Source: a virus
Direction: 5' to 3' (one strand)
Length of the DNA stretch: 34,610 nucleotides
IMG/VR virus record: IMGVR_UViG_3300026120_000125
Location: 1-34,610 of that record
Under the pieces are notes generated by a model, which was given only the letters and a program-made list of their open reading frames with translations, was not told the origin of the DNA and ran no database searches. The first letter of the stretch is position 1. Every line of letters begins with the position of its first letter. This document shows, in pieces, positions 9,324 to 31,740 of the stretch. Position numbers and translations under genes: made by a program.

Positions 9324-9476
9324 TTACACTTCTTCAATTTCCTCGGCTTCGATTCCATCGTTACCACAATTGAAGCAGCATCCTACTTCAACCTCATCGG
9401 CATAATCACCACCTTCGGTGATTTCTATGATGGCTTCGACTCCGCAGTCTGAGCAGTAAAATCGGTATTTAGTCAT
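9324..9476 (-). CDS. Small zinc-ribbon protein downstream of ribonucleotide reductase
   Basis: A 50-residue protein (MTKYRFYCSDCGVEA...). CSDC (8-11) and CCFNC (33-37) form a four-Cys zinc ribbon, followed by a strongly acidic tail (EAEEIEEV). The start overlaps the reductase stop as TAATG, so translation is probably coupled. It could be a partner of the reductase or a glutaredoxin-like helper, but it lacks a redox CPxC; a structural zinc role is more likely. Confidence 0.65.
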   Translation of the reverse strand: MTKYRFYCSDCGVEAIIEITEGGDYADEVEVGCCFNCGNDGIEAEEIEEV

Positions 9477-11692
9477 TAGAAGTCTATCTCACACCCGTTG
9501 CCAACACAGCTCGCTGCGCCGATTGTATCGACTTCGGTAAACTTCTTAGAATGAAGTTCATCGATCCAGTCGATTGGTTGATACTCTTTCTGGATCTTCT
9601 TCCACTTATGAAGAAGGTATACGTCTTTCAGACATTCTTCTCCTTTGGCAAGATCTCCGTCAAGGTAGTTATCGGTGAACTTTTCAAAGCGTCGAATCCA
9701 GTCTCTCTTGACCGCATTTTCACGTGAGTCATGGCTTAGATCTTCACCATTGGATTTCGCCGTTTCGATCGCTGACCACAAATCGCGAAAAGCATCGAGA
9801 CCATCTACGATAAGACCAGATGCAAAGATACCGGCGGTACCATATTTCTTAACGATTTGATTGGCATCAATAACTGCTGTGAATGGCGCCTGGTTGAATG
9901 CCTTATCACCAGTCGCAGCCAGGAAAGAAATGCCGGCAAAGTAATGGCGATTCTCAAACACGTAATCCTCAACCTTATCCCAATCATCAACCTCAACAGT
10001 GTTGGATACGTTGTGGCGAAGTGTTGGATCAACACATAGATTTACATCAGTACCGCCTTCGACCCATGCACTCTGGGCTAGCTTAACCTTTTCAAGGAAT
10101 TTTATGCCACGAGCATTTTCCTTGAAGTAAGATCCTTCTTGAGGAACAATTGGAAATGATACCGTGAAGTCCGAATTTGTTGAAGACCAAATTGAATCTT
10201 CAACCATCGCTGGGTTAGTACGGCCGATTAGCTGGGCTACTTCGGTTTCCTTATTGAGCTGTACATTTCGTAGATACATTGCTGAGTGTTCAGCATGGAT
10301 ACCGGAAGCAGTTTCGAGGAGGACCGATGCGTTTCCAGAAGGCTTAACACATGTAGACCGTGCAGCAGGATTGATACCTAAAGCTTGTGCAACTTCTTTG
10401 TTGACTTCAAGGACAATTTCTGCCCCTTTCTTCAAGACTTCTTCATCAAACAAAACGTCGGGTGAATTCATCCATCCTGTGATCGAGACACCAATGAGGG
10501 CTTCTCGTTCAAAGATCTTGCGAGACGTTTCTGGTAGAAATTTGAAATCAGTATATCCAGCCTGAAGAGTGCCAAGAATAGAAGCAGCACGGCAAGCCTC
10601 ATAAAATTCCTCAGGGGTGTGGCACGCACCTCCATTAATTTCGGTGAGATTGCATCCTTGCCAGCCCGATTTACCGTCGATTTGTGGGTACATTCCGATT
10701 TCGACACATGGGTTGACACAGTGTTCGGTTGATTCTGCGAAGACAAAGCCTGGTTCTCCATATTCCTTTACCGACTTCATGATTTCGGCAAACTGTTCAC
10801 GTGTAATCTCATCGCGAACAATGAGAGCTGAATTGTTTGACCGTGCTCGCTGTCGGTTATCAACAAGCCAGTTGCCGGTTTTTGCTGTCAGCATCTCAAG
10901 GTCGTCAGGAGAGAAGAGACAGATTGTTGCTGAACGGCGTACTCCACCAGAAAGGACAGCATCGGCAATGTGCATCACGATGTCGTAAACGTGGATTGGT
11001 CTGAGAGTATTTATTCCCTCCATGATGACGAGTTTCTGAAGGAGAAACTCGATACGATTAAGAGCAAGGTTAAGACCGTCTGGGCCTGGTGCCTTAAATC
11101 CACCGGAAATCATCGAACCCTTTGGTCGAATCTGAGAAAGGTCAAAATACACACGACGACCTTCATATTCTGGGTGCTTACCACCACCCACGAAATACGA
11201 CGACATCAAAATGTCAACGGCATTTGCCCAACCCTCGATAGAGTCTTCGACAACATAAGTCTTTGGTTGCTTTTTGCGCTCAGCAATCTTTGGAATTTTT
11301 GCGACATGGTGTTTCTGAACAGAGAAACCAGCGCCTGCACCACAAAGAAGAATGTAGAAAATTTCTCCAAAAAATTCTGCACGATCAGCATAAGAGCTGG
11401 TGCAGTTGTACATCTTCATTTGGTGCTTGAGGATCTGTTCACCCCCAAATTGAAGGGAGCGCTGAGCACCCAAGACCTTCTTGTTGGCATAGGCGACTCG
11501 TGCTTCTTCAAGATATGGCGCGATCTTGTTTTGCTTTTCAGCGTAGAAGTTCTTGTGCATGTCGATTACTCGATCGACAGCTTCTTCCCAGGTTTCGTAT
11601 CTCTGTTCAGCATCATTAAAGCGTGAGTAGGATTCGTAGAATTTGGCTTCGGACATAAGTCGACGTGTGTCGACAGCTGATGCTGGGGACAT
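9476..11692 (-). CDS. nrdJ: Class II (adenosylcobalamin-dependent) ribonucleotide reductase
   Basis: A 738-residue monomeric-type class II reductase, about the size of the Lactobacillus enzyme. C97 (MYNC) and C347 (WQGCNLTE) are the reducing pair; C329 in NPCVE (327-331) is the thiyl-radical cysteine with N327 and E331. C729 and C734 near the C-terminus (CVGNGCEIDF) are the shuttle thiols. GAGAGFSV (118-125) and the DAVLSGGVRRSA block (244-255) are typical. It makes deoxynucleotides from ribonucleotides without oxygen or an NrdB subunit but needs host cobalamin, common in marine and soil alphaproteobacteria. GAAGG lies eight bases upstream of the ATG. It feeds the ThyX, dCMP deaminase and hydroxymethylase steps. 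Confidence 0.95.
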   Translation of the reverse strand: MSPASAVDTRRLMSEAKFYESYSRFNDAEQRYETWEEAVDRVIDMHKNFYAEKQNKIAPYLEEARVAYANKKVLGAQRSLQFGGEQILKHQMKMYNCTSSYADRAEFFGEIFYILLCGAGAGFSVQKHHVAKIPKIAERKKQPKTYVVEDSIEGWANAVDILMSSYFVGGGKHPEYEGRRVYFDLSQIRPKGSMISGGFKAPGPDGLNLALNRIEFLLQKLVIMEGINTLRPIHVYDIVMHIADAVLSGGVRRSATICLFSPDDLEMLTAKTGNWLVDNRQRARSNNSALIVRDEITREQFAEIMKSVKEYGEPGFVFAESTEHCVNPCVEIGMYPQIDGKSGWQGCNLTEINGGACHTPEEFYEACRAASILGTLQAGYTDFKFLPETSRKIFEREALIGVSITGWMNSPDVLFDEEVLKKGAEIVLEVNKEVAQALGINPAARSTCVKPSGNASVLLETASGIHAEHSAMYLRNVQLNKETEVAQLIGRTNPAMVEDSIWSSTNSDFTVSFPIVPQEGSYFKENARGIKFLEKVKLAQSAWVEGGTDVNLCVDPTLRHNVSNTVEVDDWDKVEDYVFENRHYFAGISFLAATGDKAFNQAPFTAVIDANQIVKKYGTAGIFASGLIVDGLDAFRDLWSAIETAKSNGEDLSHDSRENAVKRDWIRRFEKFTDNYLDGDLAKGEECLKDVYLLHKWKKIQKEYQPIDWIDELHSKKFTEVDTIGAASCVGNGCEIDF

Positions 11693-13739: not shown

Positions 13740-14069
13740 GGAAATGACGGGATTCTGTTTCGAGGCTCCCGTCGGGCCCAAGAAGATCAAGCCGCGAGGG
13801 CGAGAGCTTCAGGAGCTGCGTTAGTGTTTGCAGTTATTAAGTTCGACCGAATAACGTAGGTCAACACGATAATCTACTCTCATCTCCCACACGCTGTCGA
13901 ATCCTATATCGGCCCCATCAAGAACACACCAGGAGATTACGAGGTAGCAATCCTCTCCTAAATTCACCCAGCTACGAGTTTCATGGTCATCGTGCTGATG
14001 TGTTCGTGGTGGAGCCGCTCGGTACTGCCCCGAGGTCCAACGAATGTTTGAATCGTATCAACGATTACA
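13740..14069 (-). ncRNA. ssrA: Circularly permuted (two-piece) tmRNA precursor
   Basis: tmRNA rescues stalled ribosomes and tags the nascent protein. Order on the minus strand: acceptor piece (about 14069-14007), joining segment (14006-13917), coding piece (from 13916). The coding piece opens GGGGCCGATATAGGATTCGAC, nearly the E. coli tmRNA 5' end. The first seven bases (13916-13910) pair with CGGCTCC (14017-14011), followed by ACCA. P2 forms between 13896-13888 and 14046-14038 (8 of 9 pairs, some G-U), then GGAC leads into the T stem (14034-14030 with 14022-14018). The tag ORF at 13831-13787 reads ANTNAAPEALALAA then stop; LAA is a ClpXP-type end. GAACACA (14005-13999) pairs with 13928-13922, closing the joining loop. 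The T-loop, GGCAGTA, is not canonical. The 3' end is uncertain; a hairpin (13773-13767 with 13752-13746) may mark it. Confidence 0.93.
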
Positions 14070-14073
14070 AGAC

Positions 14074-14104
14074 TATTTATATACTATGATGACTCAGTTG
14101 TAAA
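14074..14104 (-). promoter_or_regulatory. Dual early/late-type promoter for the tmRNA
   Basis: TTTACA (14104 to 14099), 17 bases, TATAAA (14081 to 14076). The -10 is also part of a perfect TATAAATA octamer (14081 to 14074), so both host sigma70 and a T4-type late sigma could use it. The start would be near 14068, just before the acceptor piece. It overlaps the end of the P-loop kinase gene. Confidence 0.82.
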
Positions 14105-14635
14105 CTGCTTTTTTACGAGATCAGCAACTTTTTCCACCGTGTCTTTGTCGGTAGAAACGATATGATACCGATCACAGCAGGCATGTACCACGTCAAGAAT
14201 TTCGTGATCCATGATTTCGGCTTCATTTGCATCTTGCATACGACCGAGTTGTTGGTATTTGTGTGTTCGCTTCAAGAACACGTTGAGTGGTGTACCAAGA
14301 TCATCAGCAAAGAACTTGATCGTGTCATGGAATGCTTCAGGTAGTGCTGGATTGTATTTCATTCCATAATAGGAAGAATTCAGCAAGGGAGCATCGGTAA
14401 TGACAACATCAACTCCAGCATCTACGACTCGAGCCATATTTCGATACTGTTTGCCGGCAATATAGAATTGGTAACCAAGAGTTGTGTGACGATTTTCCCA
14501 AACCAAATCTTTGGCATATTCGGTCACAAGCTCGACATTAAGTTTGGTCTCAACTTTGAGCTTAGCAAACAAGGCCGCGGCGGTCGTAGATTTACCACTA
14601 CCTGGACCACCAAATAGGTTAACTATTAGGGCCAT
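14084..14635 (-). CDS. P-loop nucleoside/nucleotide kinase-like ATPase (AAA_28-like)
   Basis: A 183-residue P-loop protein with Walker A GGPGSGKST (9-17) at the N-terminus, a VVITDAPLL block in the Walker B position and a FLKRTHKYQQLGRMQ lid-like segment rich in Arg. This layout fits small phage kinases of the AAA_28/NadR-like or dNMP kinase type. By context (ThyX, deaminase, hydroxymethylase) a deoxynucleotide kinase role comparable to T4 gp1 is possible, but the substrate is not evident. The start overlaps the DUF1289 gene by 17 bases, and the C-terminal codons carry the tmRNA promoter. Confidence 0.75.
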   Translation of the reverse strand: MALIVNLFGGPGSGKSTTAAALFAKLKVETKLNVELVTEYAKDLVWENRHTTLGYQFYIAGKQYRNMARVVDAGVDVVITDAPLLNSSYYGMKYNPALPEAFHDTIKFFADDLGTPLNVFLKRTHKYQQLGRMQDANEAEIMDHEILDVVHACCDRYHIVSTDKDTVEKVADLVKKQFTTESS

Positions 14636-17950: not shown

Positions 17951-19030
17951 TTAGGATTGTACATCAATTAGATCATCGTCATCGACAACAAGGTCTTCTT
18001 CATCTAAAGGTGAATATGCGACCTTGAATGTCTTTTCAATGTATTGAGCAAAATCTGAATTGACCATTACCTTTTCCCAAAATTCAGCATTCATGGTCTC
18101 GCGCTCGTAATAAGCATGATCTTCAACTTCACCAGTTTCGTGGTTCATGTGGAAGTAACCAAGTGAACGGCCTTTCTTCCCCTTGTAAACGAATCCACCT
18201 TCAACCGCAATTTCAAGAAGACCTGACCATTTCTGGATACCACCTTCCCATGATACCGAAATCGGAATTTTGGACTTCTCTTTTACAAAGCGAGATTTCT
18301 CGACATTGATGATGAAGTGATAGCCTTTGATTTCAGCCCCATCTTTGTCTTGACGGCGACCAATGATCCACACATTGTCGGCCGAATACATGACACCGGT
18401 ACCACCGGACACAACAGCTCTGGAGAACATTTCCTGAGTCTGGTATGTGTGGTTGATGGCAATCATCGGAATATCATGCATTGACAGATATGGTGTCACC
18501 ATTCTGAAGTAACTCTTCAACTGCTTAGCGCGAGTCATATCTGCTGCAGTGTTTTCCTTCAGAGCGTCATCAAGTTCTTTCTTCGAAGCGATATTACCAA
18601 TGGAGTCGATAATGATGATGACCTTATCATCCTCATCAATAGCTTCCAAGTGCGGCATTGTAATGAATTTCAGTTCCTCGATATGCTTGACTGGCTCATG
18701 AAATACACGATCGGTATCGATACCATAAGCTTGGAAATAGCCCTGAGGTGAACCGAATTCGGTGTCAAAGAAAAGAATAGCAGCGTCTGGATACTTTTTT
18801 AGGTATGCAGCCGCCATGAGAAGGGCAAAAGATGTTTTGAAGTGCTTTGACGGTCCAGCTAGAACTGTAAGACCAGATGTAAGACCACCCGAAAGAGAAC
18901 CTGATAGGGCGACGTTGACCATCGGTACATCGGTCGGAATAACGTCCTTGTTCATGAAAAACTTGGAAGCTGAAAGAATACCAGAATTCTTATTCTTGGA
19001 GTTCTTCTTGAGTTTATCCATGATGCTCAT
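17951..19030 (-). CDS. uvsX: UvsX, RecA-like recombinase
   Basis: A 359-residue UvsX. Walker A is GPSKHFKT (59-66), close to the T4 form GPSKSFKS; the Walker B strand KVIIIIDSIGNI follows, then the DMTRAKQLKSYFRM loop and AINHTYQTQEMF. The acidic C-terminus (DEEDLVVDDDD) fits the family. UvsX forms filaments on ssDNA for strand exchange and recombination-dependent replication. GAGG lies seven bases before the ATG. The start overlaps the stop of the upstream gene as ATGA. Confidence 0.96.
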   Translation of the reverse strand: MSIMDKLKKNSKNKNSGILSASKFFMNKDVIPTDVPMVNVALSGSLSGGLTSGLTVLAGPSKHFKTSFALLMAAAYLKKYPDAAILFFDTEFGSPQGYFQAYGIDTDRVFHEPVKHIEELKFITMPHLEAIDEDDKVIIIIDSIGNIASKKELDDALKENTAADMTRAKQLKSYFRMVTPYLSMHDIPMIAINHTYQTQEMFSRAVVSGGTGVMYSADNVWIIGRRQDKDGAEIKGYHFIINVEKSRFVKEKSKIPISVSWEGGIQKWSGLLEIAVEGGFVYKGKKGRSLGYFHMNHETGEVEDHAYYERETMNAEFWEKVMVNSDFAQYIEKTFKVAYSPLDEEDLVVDDDDLIDVQS

Positions 19031-19316: not shown

Positions 19317-20318
19317 TCAGGCAAAGAAATCTTCAAGAGATGGTGATTTTTGTGGATTTTGTTCACCAGTCCAAAATGGATACGAGGATCTTGCCAAATG
19401 AACAGATCTTGGTTTTTCCATATGGTCGAAACTGAGTTCACCCTTTGGGTTTATCAGATAATTGGCCCATGATGAATCAAATGTGATATCTGTGTTATTG
19501 CATAGTTTCTGCATAGTTTCAATGAAGAAGTTTCTGGCATCGTTTCTTTCCTGCCAGGTTCCCCAAAAGGGCTTACCCTTGTAATACCCCGACTTTGGTA
19601 CGACTCGAGACTCGTTTTCAATTGGAAGGGGCGCATAAACTATTTTGGTTTCAGTGTCAATTGCATTGACTTGTTTCACGTACTCATTGAGAATAGGAGT
19701 CAACACTTCTTTGTAATCCCCCAATCGACAAACATGATGGCGTATATCGATATTTCCAAAATAGAAACCAGCTTCGGCCAATTCTGTTTCCGGTAAAAAC
19801 GATTTCAGACCCTCTTTCAAAGCACCATTCAGGGTTTTGAAAGGAACAGAGTTGATCATCATTCCAGGTCGGTACATACAAATAGTATGCGAATCACCAA
19901 CAGTTACTCGTTTGGTGATTTTTGGATGAACTGTAGCTGAAATTCCGGTCCATTTTCCAAATTGATCTAGATCAATATCATCCCAGGATTTCGGATATTC
20001 ACCCTTAAGGCGACCTCTTATCATTTCAGCGTAATCAGGGAAATCATAATGTAGGGAATACACCTTACCCTTAAATTTGGATAGGTTTATAAGCTTATCA
20101 ACTCCACCAAATTTTTTGACTCCACCAAAAATGTTTAAGCCGCCTGAGAAATCATTTCCATGGTAGAACCATATCTCGTCATACTCAGAATAGTCGGAAA
20201 TGTCACCAAAATCAATATCTGCTCCAATCATGTCGGCATACATGAAAGCTTGAGCAGATTTGTGTGATGTTGGTCTAGCCGAAATATTGTAGAATGGAGA
20301 AGATATAAGCTTTCTCAT
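19317..20318 (-). CDS. SGNH-hydrolase-like protein with a clamp-binding-like C-terminal tail
   Basis: A 333-residue protein. VGDSHT (140-145), YFGNIDIR (187-193) and DHMEKPRSVH (298-307) line up with SGNH blocks I, III and V, giving a possible Ser143/Asp/His307 triad for ester hydrolysis or acyl transfer. The first 130 residues are an uncharacterised Rossmann-like part with a Gly-rich GGLNIFGG stretch. It ends SPSLEDFFA, nearly the ending of the phage DNA polymerase (SSLEDFFT). It is the last gene of the coupled INO1-HAD-HhH-FkbM chain; the start overlaps the FkbM stop as ATGA with GAGGAG upstream. A role in acylating or deacylating a base modification at the fork is inference. Confidence 0.6.
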   Translation of the reverse strand: MRKLISSPFYNISARPTSHKSAQAFMYADMIGADIDFGDISDYSEYDEIWFYHGNDFSGGLNIFGGVKKFGGVDKLINLSKFKGKVYSLHYDFPDYAEMIRGRLKGEYPKSWDDIDLDQFGKWTGISATVHPKITKRVTVGDSHTICMYRPGMMINSVPFKTLNGALKEGLKSFLPETELAEAGFYFGNIDIRHHVCRLGDYKEVLTPILNEYVKQVNAIDTETKIVYAPLPIENESRVVPKSGYYKGKPFWGTWQERNDARNFFIETMQKLCNNTDITFDSSWANYLINPKGELSFDHMEKPRSVHLARSSYPFWTGEQNPQKSPSLEDFFA

Positions 20319-21028
20319 TTTCTCCTCAAAAACATATCAATTCCAAACAGTGTACCAGTATGAGAAAATCCTAGATTGGGATATTCGACCTCTTTATCGT
20401 TGGCAAATCCTGTACATGGATCAATTTCAACAATATCGAAATCTTCTTTTAGCTGGTGGATCCAGATATCATTCAGTTTTTGGATGTCACTAGTTCTATG
20501 TATCTCAATTGCCAATTCCTGAACGTGATCAGGAATCGAAAAGTCGGTATCATTCAACCATTTCGATTCAGCCGATTCAATATCAACTTTAAGATGAGTT
20601 GGTTTATACATCTCGAGAACATCAGGTAGAAAGTAATTGTCTACGATTGTTCTCTTTTTCCGCATACCAGGCTTGATTGGATCTACAGTTCCAGAACATG
20701 GAGCATTCTTGCTCTCGGTCTGGTAAAAAGTAAGACTTGCTTCCGTATTCATTGATGCGGCTCCCTTAATCAGGATCGCATCAGACGGAGCATTCTGTTT
20801 CAGGACTTGAAAATTGTCTTCATCGGGCTCAAAGGCGACATATTTATCGTGCTCTGATCCTTTAACAATGTGGGCAAATCCACCAATGTTGGCGCCCAAA
20901 TCCATTATTATCGATGAACTATCGAATGTGAAATTGGTGTAATGATTGAGGCAATCATTGACCATTCCCTTATCGACATTGTAACCTTCTCGTACAAAAA
21001 TACCCTTGTACATAATCAAATCAGTCAT
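20315..21028 (-). CDS. FkbM-family SAM-dependent methyltransferase
   Basis: A 237-residue methyltransferase. SAM motif I is IIMDLGANIGGF (40-51), motif II AFEPDEDNF (65-73) and the family marker LKVDIESAE (146-154). FkbM enzymes O-methylate small hydroxylated substrates such as sugars. It overlaps both neighbours by ATGA: the HhH protein upstream and the SGNH-like protein downstream. In this setting the acceptor could be a hydroxyl of an inositol- or sugar-like group on DNA; that is inference. It lacks the SLEDFF-like tail that its two neighbours carry. Confidence 0.85.
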   Translation of the reverse strand: MTDLIMYKGIFVREGYNVDKGMVNDCLNHYTNFTFDSSSIIMDLGANIGGFAHIVKGSEHDKYVAFEPDEDNFQVLKQNAPSDAILIKGAASMNTEASLTFYQTESKNAPCSGTVDPIKPGMRKKRTIVDNYFLPDVLEMYKPTHLKVDIESAESKWLNDTDFSIPDHVQELAIEIHRTSDIQKLNDIWIHQLKEDFDIVEIDPCTGFANDKEVEYPNLGFSHTGTLFGIDMFLRRK

Positions 21029-22101
21029 TGGAAGAAGCTTTCTAGTGTAGGTGTTTCATCAGAGAAATCTTTGGCCCTTGATACTTTTCTTCGATCACAA
21101 GCCTTCTTATCATTTCTAATTTGGAGATAGATACCAAACTGACAAGAAACAACCTCAGTGCCATAGTATTTCAGCGTGTTCTGTTGCTCAGTGAACAACT
21201 TTTCTCCATTTGATAATTCGATATTATCACTTTCTGGATGAAAGTAAACATCTTTTGTGAGTCCGATCTCGTCAGCGTTTTCTCTTAGAAAGTAAATCGC
21301 CTCTGGATAGAGCTTCTTAGGAGCTTCTGGCCACATTCTCTTAATGAGATATACAGCACCAGGTCCAGGTGCAACAAATCTCTGATCATGGTGATACTTG
21401 AGAAATGGTAATACTGAAGTCGAAGCACTGCCATGGAAGCCATAATACTCACCGATCCCTGGAAGTTTTCGTAATGCCTTGTACGCGTCCGAGATATGCT
21501 CAGATTTCAAGAGCTCTTCAAATGTTCCAGCATCTTTGTAAGAAGCGACCCACTCTAGAACATCAGAAGTTTGGAATTTCCGTTCTGAGTTGTTGTATTT
21601 TGTTCGACAAAAATTCCTAGCCCCAGTCTGAATGGAGGTATGAAGTTCGGTTGTGCCCCAGATTGGGAGCTTATTCTTCTTAGCTCTTTCGATATTTCCC
21701 TTTAAGACATTAAGGTATTCATTATCATCAGCAGCAATACGATCAAAGTCAACAAATTCTTCTTTGGAACCAGTGATCGCGGAATGGACACCCCTTGCCC
21801 CATAAAAGTGGGAAATAAGAGTATTGCCAAGAATGTTGAATTGGGACATGTCTTGTTGAGCAATAACTGTCCCAATATGACGCATACGGTCATCTAATGT
21901 AATTGTAGGGTGGAAGTATTCAACATTGAAACCTAATCCATAATCAGGTTCACCGTGTCTATTGACAGCTTCATATTTCTCCTGTATGAAACCATTTTGA
22001 ATACATGCGCGGGTATTGATTTTCTTTAGGAACCAATTGAAATCTTTCAGAGTTTCCTTATCGAGATTTTTTTCCCAGTCATACTCGTATGTCGTTGACA
22101 T
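21025..22101 (-). CDS. HhH DNA-glycosylase-like protein (aGPT-PPlase/HMUDK-helical type) with clamp-binding-like tail
   Basis: A 358-residue mainly helical protein. LRKLPGIGEYYGFH (210-223) is a helix-hairpin-helix-like turn, and a second Gly-rich loop APGPGAV (244-250) follows. This pairing recalls the helical families tied to thymine hypermodification in phages (alpha-glutamyl/putrescinyl-thymine pyrophosphorylases and the helical domain of 5-hydroxymethyl-dU kinase). That match is from memory of patterns, not alignment. The C-terminus TPTLESFFQ resembles the polymerase tail. I use ATG 22101 with AGGA upstream; 22131 is possible. It is coupled to FkbM downstream and overlaps the HAD gene upstream. 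Confidence 0.62.
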   Translation of the reverse strand: MSTTYEYDWEKNLDKETLKDFNWFLKKINTRACIQNGFIQEKYEAVNRHGEPDYGLGFNVEYFHPTITLDDRMRHIGTVIAQQDMSQFNILGNTLISHFYGARGVHSAITGSKEEFVDFDRIAADDNEYLNVLKGNIERAKKNKLPIWGTTELHTSIQTGARNFCRTKYNNSERKFQTSDVLEWVASYKDAGTFEELLKSEHISDAYKALRKLPGIGEYYGFHGSASTSVLPFLKYHHDQRFVAPGPGAVYLIKRMWPEAPKKLYPEAIYFLRENADEIGLTKDVYFHPESDNIELSNGEKLFTEQQNTLKYYGTEVVSCQFGIYLQIRNDKKACDRRKVSRAKDFSDETPTLESFFQ

Positions 22102-22483
22102 GTCGGACGTTTTCCTTTTCAACCAAATCATGTTGAATCAATACACAATGAATATGAGGCATGATCTTCTTGATTTCTTTGATTTGAATTGGATCATCAT
22201 CAAAATGGATCCCAAATCGATATCCAGCACTTTCAAGATGGAAAAGTGTCATACCTTTATGCCTACCAGAGCTTGTTCTGGTCTTATCCTCAAATTTCAC
22301 TGGGTTCATAAACAACTCATTATGTATACCCTTGCTATTCAACAATTCGACAGTTTCGTCATACTCATCGAACTTTGATCTTCCAGTAATGATGATATCG
22401 TTGGGGCCCGGGTAGATACCATCGTATCTACCCATGTTGATAACCCCATCAATATCAAAAGAATTGATCAGCCGATTAGTCAT
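22079..22483 (-). CDS. HAD-superfamily phosphatase-like protein
   Basis: A 134-residue HAD-like protein. Motif I is FDIDG (9-13, D10 nucleophile, D12 acid/base), motif II ITGRS (32-36), motif III Lys in RHKGMTL (K76), motif IV FDDDP (94-98). It lacks a cap domain, as in small phosphatases. Directly downstream of the inositol-phosphate synthase, it could dephosphorylate inositol phosphate to inositol; that is an inference from order. The start at 22483 overlaps the previous stop; a start at 22498 would overlap more. No strong ribosome site, so coupling is likely. Confidence 0.78.
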   Translation of the reverse strand: MTNRLINSFDIDGVINMGRYDGIYPGPNDIIITGRSKFDEYDETVELLNSKGIHNELFMNPVKFEDKTRTSSGRHKGMTLFHLESAGYRFGIHFDDDPIQIKEIKKIMPHIHCVLIQHDLVEKENVRHVNDIRV

Positions 22484-23771
22484 AATCAGTGACAACATCT
22501 TGGAATGTGTATGGAAGATCTGCAGCTTTTGGATTGTTCTCCTTAAGCTGTGCTTTGGTAAGATCAGTCAATACTCGGCGTGCGAGTGCATCACACTCAA
22601 ATTTGGAATCATCAGTTGAAAGCTGAAGAGGCGGTGTCTTCTGTGTCCAAGCTGATGGACCTCGAAGATAACCAACAATACCCATTTCAGCTGCAACAAT
22701 ACAGAATCGAATTGCCGAAACCACAACACCACCAGAGTTTGGAGAGTCTTGAACTGAAAGTCGAGCAGAAAGCTCATATCGAGCACCACCAAAACCATAA
22801 GCAATTATGTCAAAGTTGGCGACCTTGTTATCGGAACCAGTGTATTGACCTCCAGGCTTTTGAAACACAGTAAGCGATGGTCCAGCATACAGGGTTTGAC
22901 CCGCAGTAGAAACATCTCTGACTGAGTTCTGCCCTTTAAGGACGTTTTCCTTCGAAATGTGCTTGTTCTTCAGGCGAGACTCATTGGACATATTCAGGAA
23001 GTCAGTGTTTGCTGTACGCCCGGTACGAATATGCTCTTGTCCCTGGGTTGACCCTGAGGCCATATTCATCTGAATGTGTTGCGTAACCATTAACCCAGAA
23101 TCAATCATTGCACCCTGAAGCACCTCAGACATTCTGGATGCGCCCCAAGCTGATCTCATATCTGAACCAACAATAGTCAAGCCAGCATCAATGAACTTTT
23201 GTTCGATTTCTTTTGTTTCTTCAGTACCAATGAGTGTTGGAATACAATTGACGAAGTGAACCCCAGCGTCAATAGCTACATCAATCCAGAACCTAGATGC
23301 ATCTTCGGATCCAACTGGGAGGTAATTGATAAGAACATCAACATTTGCTCCTTTGACCAATTCAACATAATGGTCAATCAGCTCTTCTCGTGTGTGAGAT
23401 TTTTCGATGTCATCAGAATGAAGACGAAAAGAAACATCTTCCGGATATTCGAGCATGTAATCCATAACTCCATCAAATCGAGGAGCAAGGTAGACTTTTA
23501 CATTTTCTGGGATATCGATTTCGTCGACATGATCCATTGCGCAATTTGGCTTGGCTCGAAGGGCTTCCTTGAGAGGCATGCCGACTTTACGTTCATCGAT
23601 ATCAAACCCAATCGTGAATTTGATATGCTCAGTACCGTATCCTCCGATGTTGGCATACATTAGACCAACTTTGTCATCAGGATTTTGATTGTAGTACTGA
23701 ACGCCTTCGACAAGTGACTTGGCGCAGTTGCCGGCACCGATGATGCCGACGTTAATGTTTTCGTTTGTCAT
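22476..23771 (-). CDS. myo-Inositol-1-phosphate synthase homologue
   Basis: A 431-residue protein. The NAD-binding loop VGIIGAGNCAKSLVEG (8-23) and FDIDERKVG match INO1 proteins; INYLPVGSE, VNCIPTLIG, IVGSDMRSAWGAS, TDFLNMSNESRL, HISKENVL and the ending GPSAWTQKTPPLQ follow the family order. INO1 converts glucose-6-phosphate to inositol-1-phosphate. Some conserved residues differ (GDDxKSQxGAT reads GSDMRSAWGAS; GGNxDF reads TANTDF), so the substrate may have changed. First gene of the five-gene chain, behind a TATAAATA box and a hairpin. Phages rarely carry such an enzyme for metabolism; a role in DNA or glycan modification is more likely. Confidence 0.88.
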   Translation of the reverse strand: MTNENINVGIIGAGNCAKSLVEGVQYYNQNPDDKVGLMYANIGGYGTEHIKFTIGFDIDERKVGMPLKEALRAKPNCAMDHVDEIDIPENVKVYLAPRFDGVMDYMLEYPEDVSFRLHSDDIEKSHTREELIDHYVELVKGANVDVLINYLPVGSEDASRFWIDVAIDAGVHFVNCIPTLIGTEETKEIEQKFIDAGLTIVGSDMRSAWGASRMSEVLQGAMIDSGLMVTQHIQMNMASGSTQGQEHIRTGRTANTDFLNMSNESRLKNKHISKENVLKGQNSVRDVSTAGQTLYAGPSLTVFQKPGGQYTGSDNKVANFDIIAYGFGGARYELSARLSVQDSPNSGGVVVSAIRFCIVAAEMGIVGYLRGPSAWTQKTPPLQLSTDDSKFECDALARRVLTDLTKAQLKENNPKAADLPYTFQDVVTDYD

Positions 23772-23843: not shown

Positions 23844-23851
23844 TATTTATA
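23844..23851 (-). promoter_or_regulatory. T4-late-type promoter before the INO1-HAD-HhH-FkbM-SGNH chain
   Basis: A perfect TATAAATA octamer on the minus strand in the only sizeable gap (23772-23855) of this region, about 75 bases before the INO1-like start codon. This would put the chain under late control. Confidence 0.58.
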
Positions 23852-23855
23852 GTGG

Positions 23856-24116
23856 TTATCGATCGTACCATACTACAAATTGGAGATTAAGTTTGTCATT
23901 GTACTTCGCGAGCACAATGTCGACGTTTGAAGGTTTGACCATGATGTTGGTTTCTTGACTTTCATTGGCAAGGAAACCATGACCATCATAATCCATCAAA
24001 GCTCCGAGTTCCACATCTTCGAGGAACTCTTCGATTGTCATGATGTCGCCATATTCGTTGAAGTCACGATACACGAGGTCTGTTTCCAAACCCCACATAT
24101 GATCATACACTTTCAT
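23856..24116 (-). CDS. Small acidic hypothetical protein
   Basis: An 86-residue acidic protein (MKVYDHMWGLETDLVYRD...). MTIEEFLEDVELGALMDYDGHGFLA is followed by two strands. The start overlaps the end of dCMP deaminase by 14 bases, so its expression follows that gene. It is the last gene before the late-type promoter. No family recognised. Confidence 0.62.
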   Translation of the reverse strand: MKVYDHMWGLETDLVYRDFNEYGDIMTIEEFLEDVELGALMDYDGHGFLANESQETNIMVKPSNVDIVLAKYNDKLNLQFVVWYDR

Positions 24117-24612
24117 AATCGTATTCTTTGACTCTTACACCAGCTTCAGTGAACACAGATTTTGTGTGCTTGAAAGACTCTTCCCATCTTTCGCTTGGTT
24201 TGTACGCACATACGGCGCGGGATACTCCAGCTTGGACAACACCAAGAGAGCAAGATGCGCAAATTGGAAGACCATACACATAAATGGTAGAACCGTGTAG
24301 GGATACCCCATTCCATGTAGCATTATATATCGCATTCATCTCGGCATGTACAATGTATTTGTACTTTTCTTCGCGATCTGCCAGGCGAGAATTGTCTTCA
24401 ATTCCACGAGGAAAACCGTTGTAGCCAGTAGAAAGAATGCGGCGGTTTTCACCAACTACAACGGCTCCGATCTGAGAAGAAGGATCCTTTGACCAGGTTG
24501 AAATAAGCTTGGCCATTTTCAAGAATCGAAGGTCCCACTTCTCGGATCCACCATCATTTATGGTATACATCGGAGATCCTGGTACCGAAATCATTTCACA
24601 ATCAAAGTCCAT
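24103..24612 (-). CDS. cd: dCMP deaminase
   Basis: A 169-residue zinc deaminase. HAE at 89-91 supplies the zinc His and catalytic Glu, and CASC at 118-121 the two zinc Cys (usual form PCxxC; here PICASC). The QIGAVVV and STGYNGFPRG strands are typical of dCMP deaminases. It turns dCMP into dUMP, the substrate of ThyX, and in T4 helps balance pyrimidine pools while hydroxymethyl-dCMP is made. The start at 24612 has AGGA six bases upstream and overlaps the previous stop by one base (TGATG). Confidence 0.95.
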   Translation of the reverse strand: MDFDCEMISVPGSPMYTINDGGSEKWDLRFLKMAKLISTWSKDPSSQIGAVVVGENRRILSTGYNGFPRGIEDNSRLADREEKYKYIVHAEMNAIYNATWNGVSLHGSTIYVYGLPICASCSLGVVQAGVSRAVCAYKPSERWEESFKHTKSVFTEAGVRVKEYDYESV

Positions 24613-25573: not shown

Positions 25574-26263
25574 TTACTCCACTAGGTGAAAATGTCTTTC
25601 GTAGACATGAAGGTTCTGAACTTGCCAGTAAATGTTGCCAGGTTCAATCTTTTCAAGATGACGCATATGACTGTATTTGGCCAAGTCATTGTATTCTCGG
25701 ACCATAAAGTCCAAGACATATTTTGCCCACGCATAATCGTTCTTGTAGCCGTATATTACATCATTCGAGCGCATTTGTACACATGCGTGTAGTCTTTTGT
25801 CACGAATGTAATATGCCACAGCATTGGTACAAATGAAATCATTCTTACCGTTTTCATTGTACTCGTCCCAAATTGATGGCCGATTGTAAATCATCACAGC
25901 ACGGCGAGAATCGGGATTATCAACAAGTTCACCAATAGCACGGTCGAATTGGTTACCATATTTAGGTGAGAAAATCAGATGACCATAATTGGAATTGATT
26001 TCACCATGTTCGTTGGCCGTATACTTCCATGCGGCTGGTGGTTCTTTGTCTTCGTAAATGTCGTTGATGTTGGTCGAACCAGATTCATACCATTCAATCT
26101 CAGCATCAACATAATCTTGATTGACAGTACCAAAAATTGCTGGTTCATCAGCAATGAAGGATGCACCGATCATTTCAATGGTTTTGGATCCAGTACGATC
26201 TGTGGTGAATCGCTCAGCAGCGAGTTCACCCTTGAAGTATTCACGGATATCTGCAACATTCAT
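25574..26263 (-). CDS. Thymidylate-synthase-fold pyrimidine hydroxymethylase, probably dCMP type
   Basis: A 229-residue member of the thymidylate synthase superfamily. C145 (FICTN) is the catalytic Cys; R165-S166 and D168 (QMRSNDV) are phosphate and active-site residues; H219 and Y221 (LHVYERH) match TS HxY. Aligning RSNDVIYGYKND without gaps to E. coli TS RSCDVFLGLPFN puts D176 at Asn177. In T4 dCMP hydroxymethylase this residue is Asp, which selects dCMP; Asn selects dUMP. The product would be hydroxymethyl-dCMP. The adjacent N175 leaves a small doubt about register. GGAG precedes the ATG, which overlaps the Nmad1 stop as ATGA. ThyX elsewhere covers dTMP synthesis. Confidence 0.82.
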   Translation of the reverse strand: MNVADIREYFKGELAAERFTTDRTGSKTIEMIGASFIADEPAIFGTVNQDYVDAEIEWYESGSTNINDIYEDKEPPAAWKYTANEHGEINSNYGHLIFSPKYGNQFDRAIGELVDNPDSRRAVMIYNRPSIWDEYNENGKNDFICTNAVAYYIRDKRLHACVQMRSNDVIYGYKNDYAWAKYVLDFMVREYNDLAKYSHMRHLEKIEPGNIYWQVQNLHVYERHFHLVE

Positions 26264-26625
26264 GACTCGTCTCCTTCAGACGTCGGATTCGATTTCTTGA
26301 TCTTGCGATTGAACATATCACGATCACGCGTCTGACCTGGAACACCGTACTCAAGATATGCACCGTAGAAGGTTGCATAGTTGATCAGATCGATCACCGA
26401 GTCACGAAGCGATTCGTGGTTTGGTTCATAATTGGGATCATTCAGCATGGTCTCCTGAATTGACCGCATGCGAAGCATCTTACCATGCATGATGTCAAAG
26501 ATCGACTGGATGCCGTTGGCATAGTAATCGGCCTGTTCAACCGACGATGCATCGTTCTGGTAGTCTTGTGCTTTCTTGTTCTGGATTTCCGCACATTCTT
26601 TCAAGATCTTCAAGGATGGTTTCAT
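26260..26625 (-). CDS. Nmad1/DUF1599-family nucleotide-modification-associated protein
   Basis: A 121-residue helical protein: CAEIQNKKAQDYQ, then YYANGIQSIFDIMHGKMLRMRSI and ESLRDSVIDLINYATFYGAYLE. This is the pattern of DUF1599, also known as nucleotide modification associated domain 1, with K/DY near the start, GKMLR in the middle and ESxxDxxxDLxNY at the end. Such proteins occur with base-modification enzymes and may bind or process modified dNMPs. It is translationally coupled to the hydroxymethylase downstream. Start ATG 26625 has GGAG six bases upstream. It overlaps the gene upstream by 89 bases in another frame, unusually long for this phage. Confidence 0.8.
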   Translation of the reverse strand: MKPSLKILKECAEIQNKKAQDYQNDASSVEQADYYANGIQSIFDIMHGKMLRMRSIQETMLNDPNYEPNHESLRDSVIDLINYATFYGAYLEYGVPGQTRDRDMFNRKIKKSNPTSEGDES

Positions 26626-27097
26626 TCTCTTCTCCAAGTATTTCAATTGTTTCACGTGTTACATACGCCTCGCAATTCTCATAGTATGAGGGCTTGGCTG
26701 ATTTCCAAATTTTCTTGGCATCACACAATGAATAAGGGGTTATGGTGACAATATCTCCAGCTTTGAGGACAACCGTATCATCTCGGTCTGAAAAGTAAAA
26801 CAAAAAGTGAGTCAGATCGCCAATATTGATCGACTCTTTGTATTGTTCCAGTTTTGTTTGATTGTATTTTAATGGATGGATGTTGAACCACTTTCCGTTG
26901 ACTTCCTTTGCGTCAACCTTCATACCATTATATATGAAGTCGTGACGCCAATTTAGAGGGCGCTGGACAATTTTGTTTCTTTCAAGTTCCCATTCAAAGA
27001 GGAGAGCATCAGCATTCTCACGGCGCCGCCATCCACCCGACAAGAACATGTGTTGTGCATGCCGAACGAACGCTTCTTCTACCTCAATTTGTATCAT
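26537..27097 (-). CDS. Hypothetical protein, possible PD-(D/E)XK-like fold
   Basis: A 186-residue protein (MIQIEVEEAFVRHAQHMF...). The run FIYNGMKVDAKEVNGKWFNI (54-73) looks like the beta-hairpin of PD-(D/E)XK enzymes, where an Asp and a (D/E)xK pair bind metal: D62 with K64/E65 here, so the match is imperfect. The centre HPLKYNQTKLEQYKESINIGD and FYFSDRDD would form the rest of the sheet. The C-terminal 29 residues are read in the same DNA as the start of the Nmad1 gene. The start overlaps the previous stop by four bases. Confidence 0.6.
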   Translation of the reverse strand: MIQIEVEEAFVRHAQHMFLSGGWRRRENADALLFEWELERNKIVQRPLNWRHDFIYNGMKVDAKEVNGKWFNIHPLKYNQTKLEQYKESINIGDLTHFLFYFSDRDDTVVLKAGDIVTITPYSLCDAKKIWKSAKPSYYENCEAYVTRETIEILGEENETILEDLERMCGNPEQESTRLPERCIVG

Positions 27098-29229: not shown

Positions 29230-31740
29230 TTATGTAAAGAAGTCTTCAAGGGAGCTGGCTTCTTCTGCTGTCCAGCCAATTGCGTGTAAAATGAGGTTCA
29301 ATGGATCCAAAAAGGTCTTCTCGAACTGTTTCTCATAATCGATATACTTATGTAGTTTGAGCTCTTCCGGTAGAAAGTTTGGGAAAGCGATTACGTTTTC
29401 TTTCACCGGATTTGGTTTACGAAGATAGACATATTTCATCTTCGAACCTGGTGTAATAAGCTCGTACTTCTTTTCAAGACCAGCGTCTTTGATCGCGTTA
29501 TTGTATACGATCGCTGCTCGTGAATTGATCGGCGTGCCTTTCTTGTACACCGTTGTGCGGTCTACATATTTAGTGATTTCAGTAACACCCCTTGGAGCTG
29601 CAAGCTCATGGGGTGGCTTTGACTTGAACTCAGACTTGAACTTGGCAATGAATGCTTGAGTCGCTTCTTCATCACCAGTCAACATGATCTTGAACGCTTC
29701 TTTGAATTTGTCACGACAAATTTGGGGTGTCGAAGACTTGATTGCTTCAATACCCATCATTTTCAATTCAGGTTCAGCGTATTGAACACCTTCTGAGTTG
29801 TGTACGTTTAAGATGTATCGCTTCTTGGCTGTCCAGATACCACGATCAGCGATAACCTCTCGTTCCATCCACATACGATTGACCAAGCAATTCTGCTTGA
29901 TATGCAATCGTTCATATGCGTCATTGATAGTCTTCTGGAAAAAATCGGCACATGCCTTGTCAAGAAACTTGACTGGATCTTTTGGATCGAACTTCTTGAC
30001 CATAGGTCCAAAATTCAGGTATACCGAGTCGGTATCAATTGCAATCACGTAATTCTTATCCTTGGTTTCAAGGATTTCGTTCATTTTCTCATTGAGTGCT
30101 TTTTCGGCCCATCGAATGGCCAACTGGCCTGATAGTGTAATGGCTTCGGCCATTTTGAGCTCGAAGTATCGAAAATACTGATTTCCAAGTGCGCCATACA
30201 AAGAGTTGAGAAGATACTTAATAGCCTGCTCGTTGTTTCTGGCCTTTTGAATTTCTACTTTGAGAAGGTCATTCTTGGTTTTCTCGTATTCTTGCTTGTT
30301 CTTAAGCATTGATTTCTTGACGATCTTACGTTCGTCATAATACAGCTCAATGATGGTTGGGAGAATACCCTTTTTCTCTTTAATGAATGCCGCACCGTTA
30401 GCAGCAATAGCACAATTTGACTTGACCTTCTTTTCAGTGTTAAGATAGTGATCAACACTCGACATATGGCCTGGTTCATTTCGAAGAGTTTCAGGTGACA
30501 TGTTATATTGGACAATCAGGTTTGGATACAGAGAGTTGAGGTCAAATGACACAACCCAATCGTACATACCTGGTTTTGGTTCTTTCACATATCCACCCGG
30601 ATACGGTGCTTTGTATTTTGCTTCGTTTGGAAGGACGACGGTTTTCTTCTCGTATAGGAATCGATGGATAATCGAGTCCCAAATCGCGGTGGTTCCAAGG
30701 GTATCCGAATAGTTCACACCAGCTTTATAGGCCATGGTGTAGACCAATTCGAGAAGACCCATTTCAGAGTCGATCCGCTCTACAAGATCAATGTCCTTGA
30801 GGTTATAGTCAATGAACAGTTGGTGATTTTCTCGAAACAGGTTGTTGAGGTTACCATACTCCTCATACGACAATTTGCGCTCACCAAGGACAGTGTACGC
30901 AATGTGATCTAATTTGTATGACTCTTGTGGTCCGTACGCGTGACCAAACTTAAGGAACAGATCTTGATAGTCTAGGATCTGAATTCCCTTCAGATCAAAT
31001 GCTTCGGACGTTCGACCACCCTTGAATGATACTGTACGACGATCGACCATTTTCCATGGTGATAGAAGCTTGGCCTTGTCTTCACCAAGAACACGAGAAA
31101 TACGATTGACGAGATACGGGATATCGAAGAAACGGATATACCAACCCGTCACAACGTCTGGGCAATATTCTTCTTTGGACCATTGCCGTAGAAACCGTTC
31201 AATGAGATCTAGCTCATCCTTACACTTGACATATTGGATGTTACATCCTGGACGAGACTCATGAAGATACGATTTAGACGAATCGTAATCACCAAGACCA
31301 TAGATGCGCCATACATTATCAAATGTAGAGTGCATCGCGATCGAGATGATCGGTTTTTCAGCTACTTCTGGTTCGGGAAATCCATCGTCTGACGCAACCT
31401 CGATATCGATCGTGTTGACATTGATTACTCGAGGGTCAAACTTGATTTTTCCAGGAAATCTGTCATTGAGATACTGGAAAATGTAATTCTGCATACCGTA
31501 AATTGTATGCTGCTCAACATCTTTATAGGTGCTGATGAAGTCCTTTGCATCTCGCATGGACTCGAAGTTGATAGGTCTGACTGGCGTCCCGTCAAGGGAT
31601 TGCCAATCAGTTTCCTTTTGGGTACCAAGCCATAGTGTCGGCTTGAACCATACCTTCTTCTCTATTCGCTTGCCGTTGTCGTTATACCCTCTGTAAAGAA
31701 GATTGTTACCGTATCTAGACACTGAGGTATAGAATGACAT
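29230..31740 (-). CDS. 43: DNA polymerase, family B, T4 gp43 type
   Basis: An 836-residue polymerase with proofreading. Exo I D112/E114 (IDIEVA, same numbering as T4), Exo II D206 (RFFDIPY), Exo III Y312/D316 (DYNLKD). Polymerase motif A D400 (FDLNSLYP), motif B KYLLNSLYG (508-516), motif C D569/D571 (IDTDSVY). In Exo II the usual Asn before xxxFD is Tyr201 here. It ends EEASSLEDFFT, a likely sliding-clamp-binding tail comparable to the T4 gp43 C-terminus. GGAG lies seven bases before the ATG. A GATAAATA close to the late consensus lies upstream at 31763-31770. Confidence 0.98.
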   Translation of the reverse strand: MSFYTSVSRYGNNLLYRGYNDNGKRIEKKVWFKPTLWLGTQKETDWQSLDGTPVRPINFESMRDAKDFISTYKDVEQHTIYGMQNYIFQYLNDRFPGKIKFDPRVINVNTIDIEVASDDGFPEPEVAEKPIISIAMHSTFDNVWRIYGLGDYDSSKSYLHESRPGCNIQYVKCKDELDLIERFLRQWSKEEYCPDVVTGWYIRFFDIPYLVNRISRVLGEDKAKLLSPWKMVDRRTVSFKGGRTSEAFDLKGIQILDYQDLFLKFGHAYGPQESYKLDHIAYTVLGERKLSYEEYGNLNNLFRENHQLFIDYNLKDIDLVERIDSEMGLLELVYTMAYKAGVNYSDTLGTTAIWDSIIHRFLYEKKTVVLPNEAKYKAPYPGGYVKEPKPGMYDWVVSFDLNSLYPNLIVQYNMSPETLRNEPGHMSSVDHYLNTEKKVKSNCAIAANGAAFIKEKKGILPTIIELYYDERKIVKKSMLKNKQEYEKTKNDLLKVEIQKARNNEQAIKYLLNSLYGALGNQYFRYFELKMAEAITLSGQLAIRWAEKALNEKMNEILETKDKNYVIAIDTDSVYLNFGPMVKKFDPKDPVKFLDKACADFFQKTINDAYERLHIKQNCLVNRMWMEREVIADRGIWTAKKRYILNVHNSEGVQYAEPELKMMGIEAIKSSTPQICRDKFKEAFKIMLTGDEEATQAFIAKFKSEFKSKPPHELAAPRGVTEITKYVDRTTVYKKGTPINSRAAIVYNNAIKDAGLEKKYELITPGSKMKYVYLRKPNPVKENVIAFPNFLPEELKLHKYIDYEKQFEKTFLDPLNLILHAIGWTAEEASSLEDFFT

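Follow-up and report, generated by a model that had tools for sequence, protein, structure and literature searches.

The 34.6 kb window analysed here, the whole of IMG/VR virus record IMGVR_UViG_3300026120_000125 (34,610 nucleotides), carries a minus-strand chain of five genes, INO1-HAD-HhH-FkbM-SGNH, spanning positions 19317-23771 (Table 1). The source phage is T4-like, with a B-family DNA polymerase, MazG-type hydrolases, gp42, dCMP deaminase, UvsX, a DnaB-type helicase, ThyX and RNase H recovered in profile searches. An earlier note, made from the letters alone, had described five overlapping genes behind a late-type promoter and proposed that they hypermodify DNA with an inositol-like group. 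All five open reading frames (ORFs) are present and do overlap: INO1 and HAD by 23 nucleotides, HhH and FkbM by 4, FkbM and SGNH by 4, and HAD and HhH by 53 with the longest HhH ORF or by 23 from the ATG at 22101, a start that homologues favour (the first 11 residues of the HhH model have a pLDDT below 50). HAD probably starts at an inner ATG near 22480. The promoter is equally well founded, as the box TATAAATA, 72 nucleotides before the INO1 ATG, occurs five times in the window, always on the coding strand, against 0.74 copies expected; among 100 shuffled sequences none held more than 3. All five cassette genes would be transcribed from this single late promoter.

Table 1. Features of the five-gene cassette and its surroundings in the 34.6 kb window.
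Feature	Position	Strand	Basis
INO1, inositol-3-phosphate synthase (mycobacterial type)	22476-23771	-	1gr0, PF01658, invariant residues
HAD phosphatase, predicted inositol release	22079-22498	-	phrog_415, HAD motifs, position after INO1
HhH helical protein, predicted inositol:DNA transferase on 5-hydroxymethylcytosine	21025-22101 (longest ORF from 22131)	-	PF18723, fold, Ex3C, context
FkbM-type methyltransferase, optional O-methylation	20315-21028	-	phrog_8156; homologues match PF05050
SGNH-fold enzyme, predicted to act on 5-hydroxymethylcytosine DNA	19317-20318	-	Foldseek, hhalign, gene context
T4-type late promoter element TATAAATA	23844-23851	-	72 nucleotides ahead of INO1 ATG
dCMP 5-hydroxymethylase, T4 gp42 type, predicted source of 5-hydroxymethylcytosine	25574-26263	-	PDB 1b49
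dCMP deaminase	24103-24612	-	PF00383 1.6e-17
DUF1599 / nucleotide-modification-associated domain 1, possible dCTP/dUTP pyrophosphohydrolase	26260-26655	-	PF07659 2.9e-4, under curated cut-off
UvsX/RecA, conserved border downstream of cassette	17951-19030	-	kept after SGNH in relatives
DNA polymerase B, C-terminal SLEDFFT, reference for clamp-like tails	29230-31740	-	PF00136 9.7e-31

The base that receives the modification is almost certainly 5-hydroxymethylcytosine (hmC), judging by the neighbouring genes. The thymidylate-synthase-like gene matches PDB 1b49 at 2.6e-69 and its best thymidylate synthase at 2e-8, and our reading of the alignment places an Asp at the position of Asn177 in Escherichia coli thymidylate synthase, so that a gp42-type dCMP hydroxymethylase lies just upstream of a cassette that is itself held between hydroxymethylase and uvsX. 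This narrows the acceptor from the hydroxymethyl-pyrimidine at which the earlier note had stopped. The cassette thus sits in the slot occupied in T4 by the beta-glucosyltransferase gene b-gt, between 42 and uvsX, and the polymerase/gp42-to-uvsX region is described as plastic and as the home of hmC-modification genes (PMC6024577; PMC8056088). Thymidine hypermodification of the kind found in Pseudomonas phage M6 was considered for the window cassette and rejected, since the synthase is of the gp42 type rather than the type that makes 5-hydroxymethyluracil (hmU), and INO1 is the supply gene in place of an amino-acid supply.

The first two genes of the chain would supply inositol phosphate and then, presumably, free inositol, an assignment that is well supported. 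INO1 is homologous over its whole length to the mycobacterial inositol-3-phosphate synthase 1gr0 (1.6e-52; PF01658, 1.9e-9), which upholds the INO1-like identity first proposed, and it keeps the Lys and Asp residues aligned with the active site: D204, K270, K316, D342 and K378 are invariant across 84 phage sequences and align with 1gr0 D197, K248, K284, D310 and K346, which we take to be catalytic. HAD matches the polynucleotide kinase family phrog_415 (4.4e-8), has the four motifs of HAD phosphatases (D15/D17, T38, K81, D101/D102), which 95% or more of the 83 sequences compared retain, and immediately follows INO1 in 75/75 contigs collected with INO1 as the query.

The cassette is carried by a widespread family of T4-like viruses, and its gene order recurs across many contigs, beyond chance. 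Among newly fetched contigs collected with HhH as the query, each gene being counted where there was enough flank for it, INO1 and HAD accompany it in 37/37, SGNH does so in 47/47 and the hydroxymethylase in 34/34; the HhH set falls into 15 groups at 85% identity and includes a divergent subfamily with ~25%. With SGNH as the query, the hydroxymethylase lies upstream in 38/38 contigs and INO1 is present in 19/38. In the SGNH loci lacking INO1 that we inspected, the same slot is filled by a protein X of ~383 residues and an enzyme Y of the pyridoxal-phosphate (PLP) type. Protein X (383 residues; for example L111:6941-8991, between hydroxymethylase/deaminase and SGNH) contains AEDVCC, has no Pfam match and gave nothing significant by hhalign against the alignments of HhH or of the amino acid:DNA transferase ADDT, while Y and the PLP gene of phage M6 both match PF00291, Y weakly; this pair is possibly a cassette for amino-acid hypermodification of hmC. 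Wherever an HhH-query contig had enough flank (42/42), SGNH is followed by a C5-cytosine-methyltransferase-like gene, which the window lacks. Its copies (L033:13764-14951, L007:8294-9511 and 111 others) have invariant PCAGLS and GENA and mostly an LxxFM tail, and such a gene is odd for phages expected to swap C for hmC.

HhH belongs, by profile match and modelled fold, to the group of 5-hmdU kinases and amino-acid:DNA transferases. It is a member of PF18723, the "5-hmdU DNA kinase helical domain" (1.3e-10; 41.5 bits, gathering cut-off 25), and shares its fold. Its AlphaFold model (pLDDT 86) lies nearest to ORF233c of Aeromonas phage 31, followed by models of 5-hmdU DNA kinase, PPlase1 and ADDT, the best named fold match outside the proteins of the Aeromonas phage 44RR type being the SP10 5-hmdU DNA kinase. 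Among solved structures, the 5-phosphomethyl-dU glycinyltransferase 8z2n has the top probability (0.54), with an E-value that is not significant, and a solved-structure search with the HhH alignment gave no match. The Ex3C signature conserved across the superfamily is found at E326/C330; PF18724, the amino acid:DNA transferase family, is not matched, and the likeness to ADDT is one of fold. As the superfamily includes both base kinases and base transferases, the step predicted for HhH could be either. The case for HhH being the enzyme specific to inositol is made by its company: in the IMG/VR contigs tested it never occurs without INO1, unlike SGNH, which does so half the time, and phages with INO1 and a TET-type system use ADDT at this position. 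On fold and context together, we regard HhH as the transferase of inositol with even odds. The likeness to thymine-hypermodification enzymes first seen in HhH fits an inositol hypermodification that its context supports, with the exact step of HhH a prediction.

SGNH is a member of the SGNH superfamily: its AlphaFold model (pLDDT 79) matches SGNH esterases in Foldseek, with 20 PDB chains reaching E<=1e-3 at probability 1.0, and the blocks GDSH 141-144, GNID 188-191 and H307 (S143, N189, H307) are invariant in a 16-sequence alignment. Its N-terminal segment resembles T4 beta-glucosyltransferase (hhalign E 9.7e-5, probability 58%, ~50 residues aligned). A full GT-B-fold beta-glucosyltransferase was rejected, since these ~50 N-terminal residues alone align and PDB 1c3j gives E 2.2e-3 and TM 0.24; a weak match of the SGNH alignment to Oskar among solved structures (0.16) was judged to be chance. 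The earlier note had given this protein acyl or ester chemistry; acylation of inositol is made less likely by the half of SGNH loci that lack INO1. Because SGNH follows the hydroxymethylase (38/38) and not inositol (19/38), and because of its clamp-like tail and glucosyltransferase-like N-terminal segment, its role on hmC DNA is probably a general one. For FkbM, to which O-methylation had been assigned, the window protein matches the methyltransferase family phrog_8156 (9.3e-10), its FkbM identity rests on homologues (L008, 3.2e-10, and L086 match PF05050; the window protein itself does not), and its presence in 6/47 HhH-query contigs makes it an optional extra rather than a core step.

The two clamp-binding-like tails that had been noticed in this chain are found in SGNH and HhH, and each resembles the tail of the DNA polymerase encoded on its own contig. 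Clamp-binding C-terminal tails are familiar from T4. In the window, SGNH ends in QKSPSLEDFFA, HhH in DETPTLESFFQ and the polymerase in EEASSLEDFFT, and across the collected sequences the pattern L..F[FLM] stands at the C-terminus of 28/30 DNA polymerases, 56/58 HhH and 50/52 SGNH proteins, against 0/85 for INO1, 0/80 for HAD, 0/59 for the hydroxymethylase, 0/64 for dCMP deaminase and 0/38 for UvsX. The split polymerase of phage 44RR ends in LFDMFDI and the SGNH protein of Aeromonas phage 25 in LELFDI. From this likeness to the polymerase, HhH and SGNH are putative clamp binders. Enzymes that act on DNA would thus share the polymerase's clamp tail and supply enzymes would lack it, a rule that offers a simple aid for sorting modification genes in other phages.

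INO1-HAD pairs are found on three chassis: with gp42, HhH and SGNH; with TET/JBP and ADDT, together with TAGT or FkbM and in some cases a P-loop kinase (the cultured Caulobacter phage Cr30, L059, L082, L085 and L086); and with QueC, DpdA and QueE of 7-deazaguanine systems (menderavirus Ps15 and L040). The INO1 tree requires at least two changes between chassis, and at least 78/80 INO1-query contigs hold a base-modification gene, one of the two exceptions, L078, giving a weak ADDT match. As the module moves between base-modification systems, its product is best explained as being used in base modification. Matches above cut-off to the kinase family PF18751 occurred in TET-type contigs only, and neither the window nor the L033 contig was reported to have any. 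At L002:7992-12615 and L040:9971-19692, INO1-HAD lies within a block of QueC, DpdA-like and QueE genes, where inositol on a deazaguanine base is possible.

We put the probability that the cassette carries out a DNA-base hypermodification placing inositol (O-methyl-inositol in the window phage) on hmC at about 0.62; the broader claim, a DNA modification with some inositol-derived group, we consider likely. In this pathway, the gp42-type enzyme would make hm-dCMP, to be converted to hm-dCTP and built into DNA, a step very well supported by homology. INO1 would convert host glucose-6-phosphate to inositol-3-phosphate, also well supported, and HAD would strip the phosphate, presumably freeing inositol. 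FkbM, if present, may O-methylate inositol before or after transfer. Clamp-tethered HhH would then flip hmC out and form an ether between its 5-methylene carbon and a hydroxyl of inositol, working as the related amino-acid:DNA transferases do, and tethered SGNH would perform a step that all of these hmC systems have in common. Our leading guess for that step, speculative and doubtful, is that SGNH activates the hydroxymethyl group, possibly by turning it into an acyl ester, a task that falls to a P-loop kinase in TET-type relatives. The most specific version of the proposal could go either way: hmC bearing a cyclitol, either inositol or methyl-inositol, through an ether link, put there by a clamp-tethered helical transferase together with an SGNH enzyme of a new class that acts on DNA, with the same inositol module moved among hmC, TET-derived and 7-deazaguanine systems. 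The benefit to the phage is likely to be resistance to host nucleases.

Inositol might instead be a precursor only, the appended group being another cyclitol, or inositol after further processing to a methyl, acyl or glycoside form. FkbM in some members and the nucleotide-sugar epimerase or UDP-glucose dehydrogenase genes near the cassette in some relatives fit such processing, as does the match of INO1 to the five-membered-cyclitol phosphate synthase 6k96 (4.6e-27); 1gr0, however, is the far better match, and we consider this alternative possible but on the unlikely side. An unlikely variant of the same pathway makes HhH an hmC DNA kinase, with SGNH or another enzyme transferring inositol to the phosphomethyl base. 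The name of PF18723 and the SP10 fold match speak for it, and the fusion of SGNH to HhH found in phage 44RR would fit two consecutive steps. Yet a kinase should be indifferent to the group attached, and HhH keeps to INO1 where SGNH does not; moreover, TET-type INO1 phages pair INO1 with the transferase-family ADDT, some of them alongside a separate kinase.

It is improbable that INO1 and HAD serve host lipid, osmolyte or glycan metabolism and merely adjoin base-modification genes. Inositol does have such general cellular roles, the epimerase and dehydrogenase genes near some cassettes could belong to them, and Ps15 carries INO1-HAD without HhH, ADDT or TET, but a base-modification gene accompanies INO1 almost throughout and across three chemistries, the INO1-HAD-HhH order is strict, and the conserved core holds no lipid or cell-wall enzyme. 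Equally improbable is that HhH works without an activating enzyme, its conserved Cys/Glu pair attacking C6 of hmC as in C5-methyltransferases, which can condense thiols with hmC in vitro, so that water is expelled and inositol adds before SGNH edits or acylates the product, for although Ex3C is conserved across the superfamily, its Cys may be structural, and the title of 8z2n, the nearest solved relative by probability, has it act on a phosphomethyl base.

Several points weigh against inositol on hmC and are set against the evidence above. The contigs are mutually related, and the counts are therefore not independent trials. The best Pfam family of HhH carries a kinase name and hhalign gave no significant sequence similarity between HhH and the ADDT alignments, so that inositol transfer by HhH is argued from fold and context. 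The role of SGNH is the weakest point of the overall reading, and we know of no biochemical precedent for an SGNH enzyme as activator. In Ps15, a search for HhH, ADDT and TET found none, and inositol may there serve another purpose. The SGNH-HhH fusion of 44RR occurs without INO1 (not detected by tblastn) or a demonstrated inositol source, and the symporter encoded upstream is nearest to a Na+/sugar transporter. In phage 25, SGNH stands beside UDP-galactopyranose mutase and an uncharacterised protein, with no HhH. Counted in favour is that same fusion in 44RR, a phage with gp42 and no known hmC glucosyltransferase.

The 44RR symporter (L001:3256-4779) is vSGLT-like, keeping E88, N260, K294 and Q428 with Q69 changed to H and S91 to G in our reading of the alignment, at positions that we take to form the vSGLT site; vSGLT is its closest match, and transport of inositol was not adopted as its role. 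In Aeromonas phage 25 and Stenotrophomonas phage IME13 (L004:3776-7047, L005:1270-5047), the SGNH homologue accompanies UDP-galactopyranose mutase and a 358-residue protein that looks glycosyltransferase-like by eye, and galactofuranosyl-hmC is possible there. Elsewhere in the window, a permuted two-piece tmRNA of alphaproteobacterial type (13743-14108, minus strand; RF04321 91 bits, RF01849 78 bits, tag ANTNAAPEALALAA) suggests an alphaproteobacterial host, a ribonucleotide reductase at 9476-11692 has weak matches to the B12-dependent (class II) type, and a GH16-type glycosyl hydrolase adjoins a GT2 glycosyltransferase at 119-1955, close to the contig end. The DUF1599 gene keeps its position immediately before the hydroxymethylase gene in relatives.

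If inositol is indeed placed on hmC, it would be the first cyclitol on DNA known to us, and the phage contigs concerned form an abundant group; an SGNH enzyme acting on DNA at the replication fork would be identified as well. A literature search linking inositol with phage DNA returned nothing relevant, though it was not exhaustive and does not establish priority. Since inositol and hexose share C6H10O5, mass alone cannot separate inositol-hmC from glucosyl-hmC, each being hmdC + 162.053 as the nucleoside, with 14.016 more for O-methylation, and inositol-hmC, being isobaric with hexosyl-hmC, could be concealed in earlier mass-only assignments. The proposal is testable in phages already in culture.

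Several known systems resemble the cassette in part. M6 thymidine hypermodification (PF18723, ADDT, PLP and radical SAM enzymes) shares with HhH a PF18723-type helical protein with GPGA and Ex3C, and the M6 ORF examined is a PF18723 protein standing alone, without a P-loop, its N-terminal extension being spurious; the M6 system differs in joining hmU to an amino-acid nucleophile instead of hmC to a cyclitol, as predicted here, and the window cassette has SGNH and no radical SAM or PLP enzyme. Phage Cr30 also has INO1-HAD beside ADDT in a base-modification block, but in Cr30-type phages hmC would come from oxidation of 5-methylcytosine, and ADDT and TAGT replace HhH and SGNH. Like the arabinosyl-hmC system of RB69, the cassette lies in the region from polymerase to UvsX and is a module with which the phage would make a carbohydrate precursor for itself, a phosphatase-domain protein included (PMC6024577; PMC8056088), although RB69 uses UDP-arabinose and an arabinosyltransferase and the window cassette has no evident nucleotide-sugar route. 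With the glucosylation of hmC in T-even phages it shares the gp42-type hydroxymethylase, the b-gt slot and the beta-glucosyltransferase-like N-terminal segment of SGNH, whereas no glucosyltransferase was found in the cassette, which would make its own inositol and has helical transferase-type and SGNH enzymes. In Aeromonas phages 44RR2.8t and 31 (ORF233c), SGNH and HhH are fused in one 795-residue protein and gp42 is present. For 44RR, 31 and 25, gp42 but no glucosyltransferase is listed (Petrov 2010, PMC2993671), and inositol would offer an answer to what 44RR and 31 attach to hmC.

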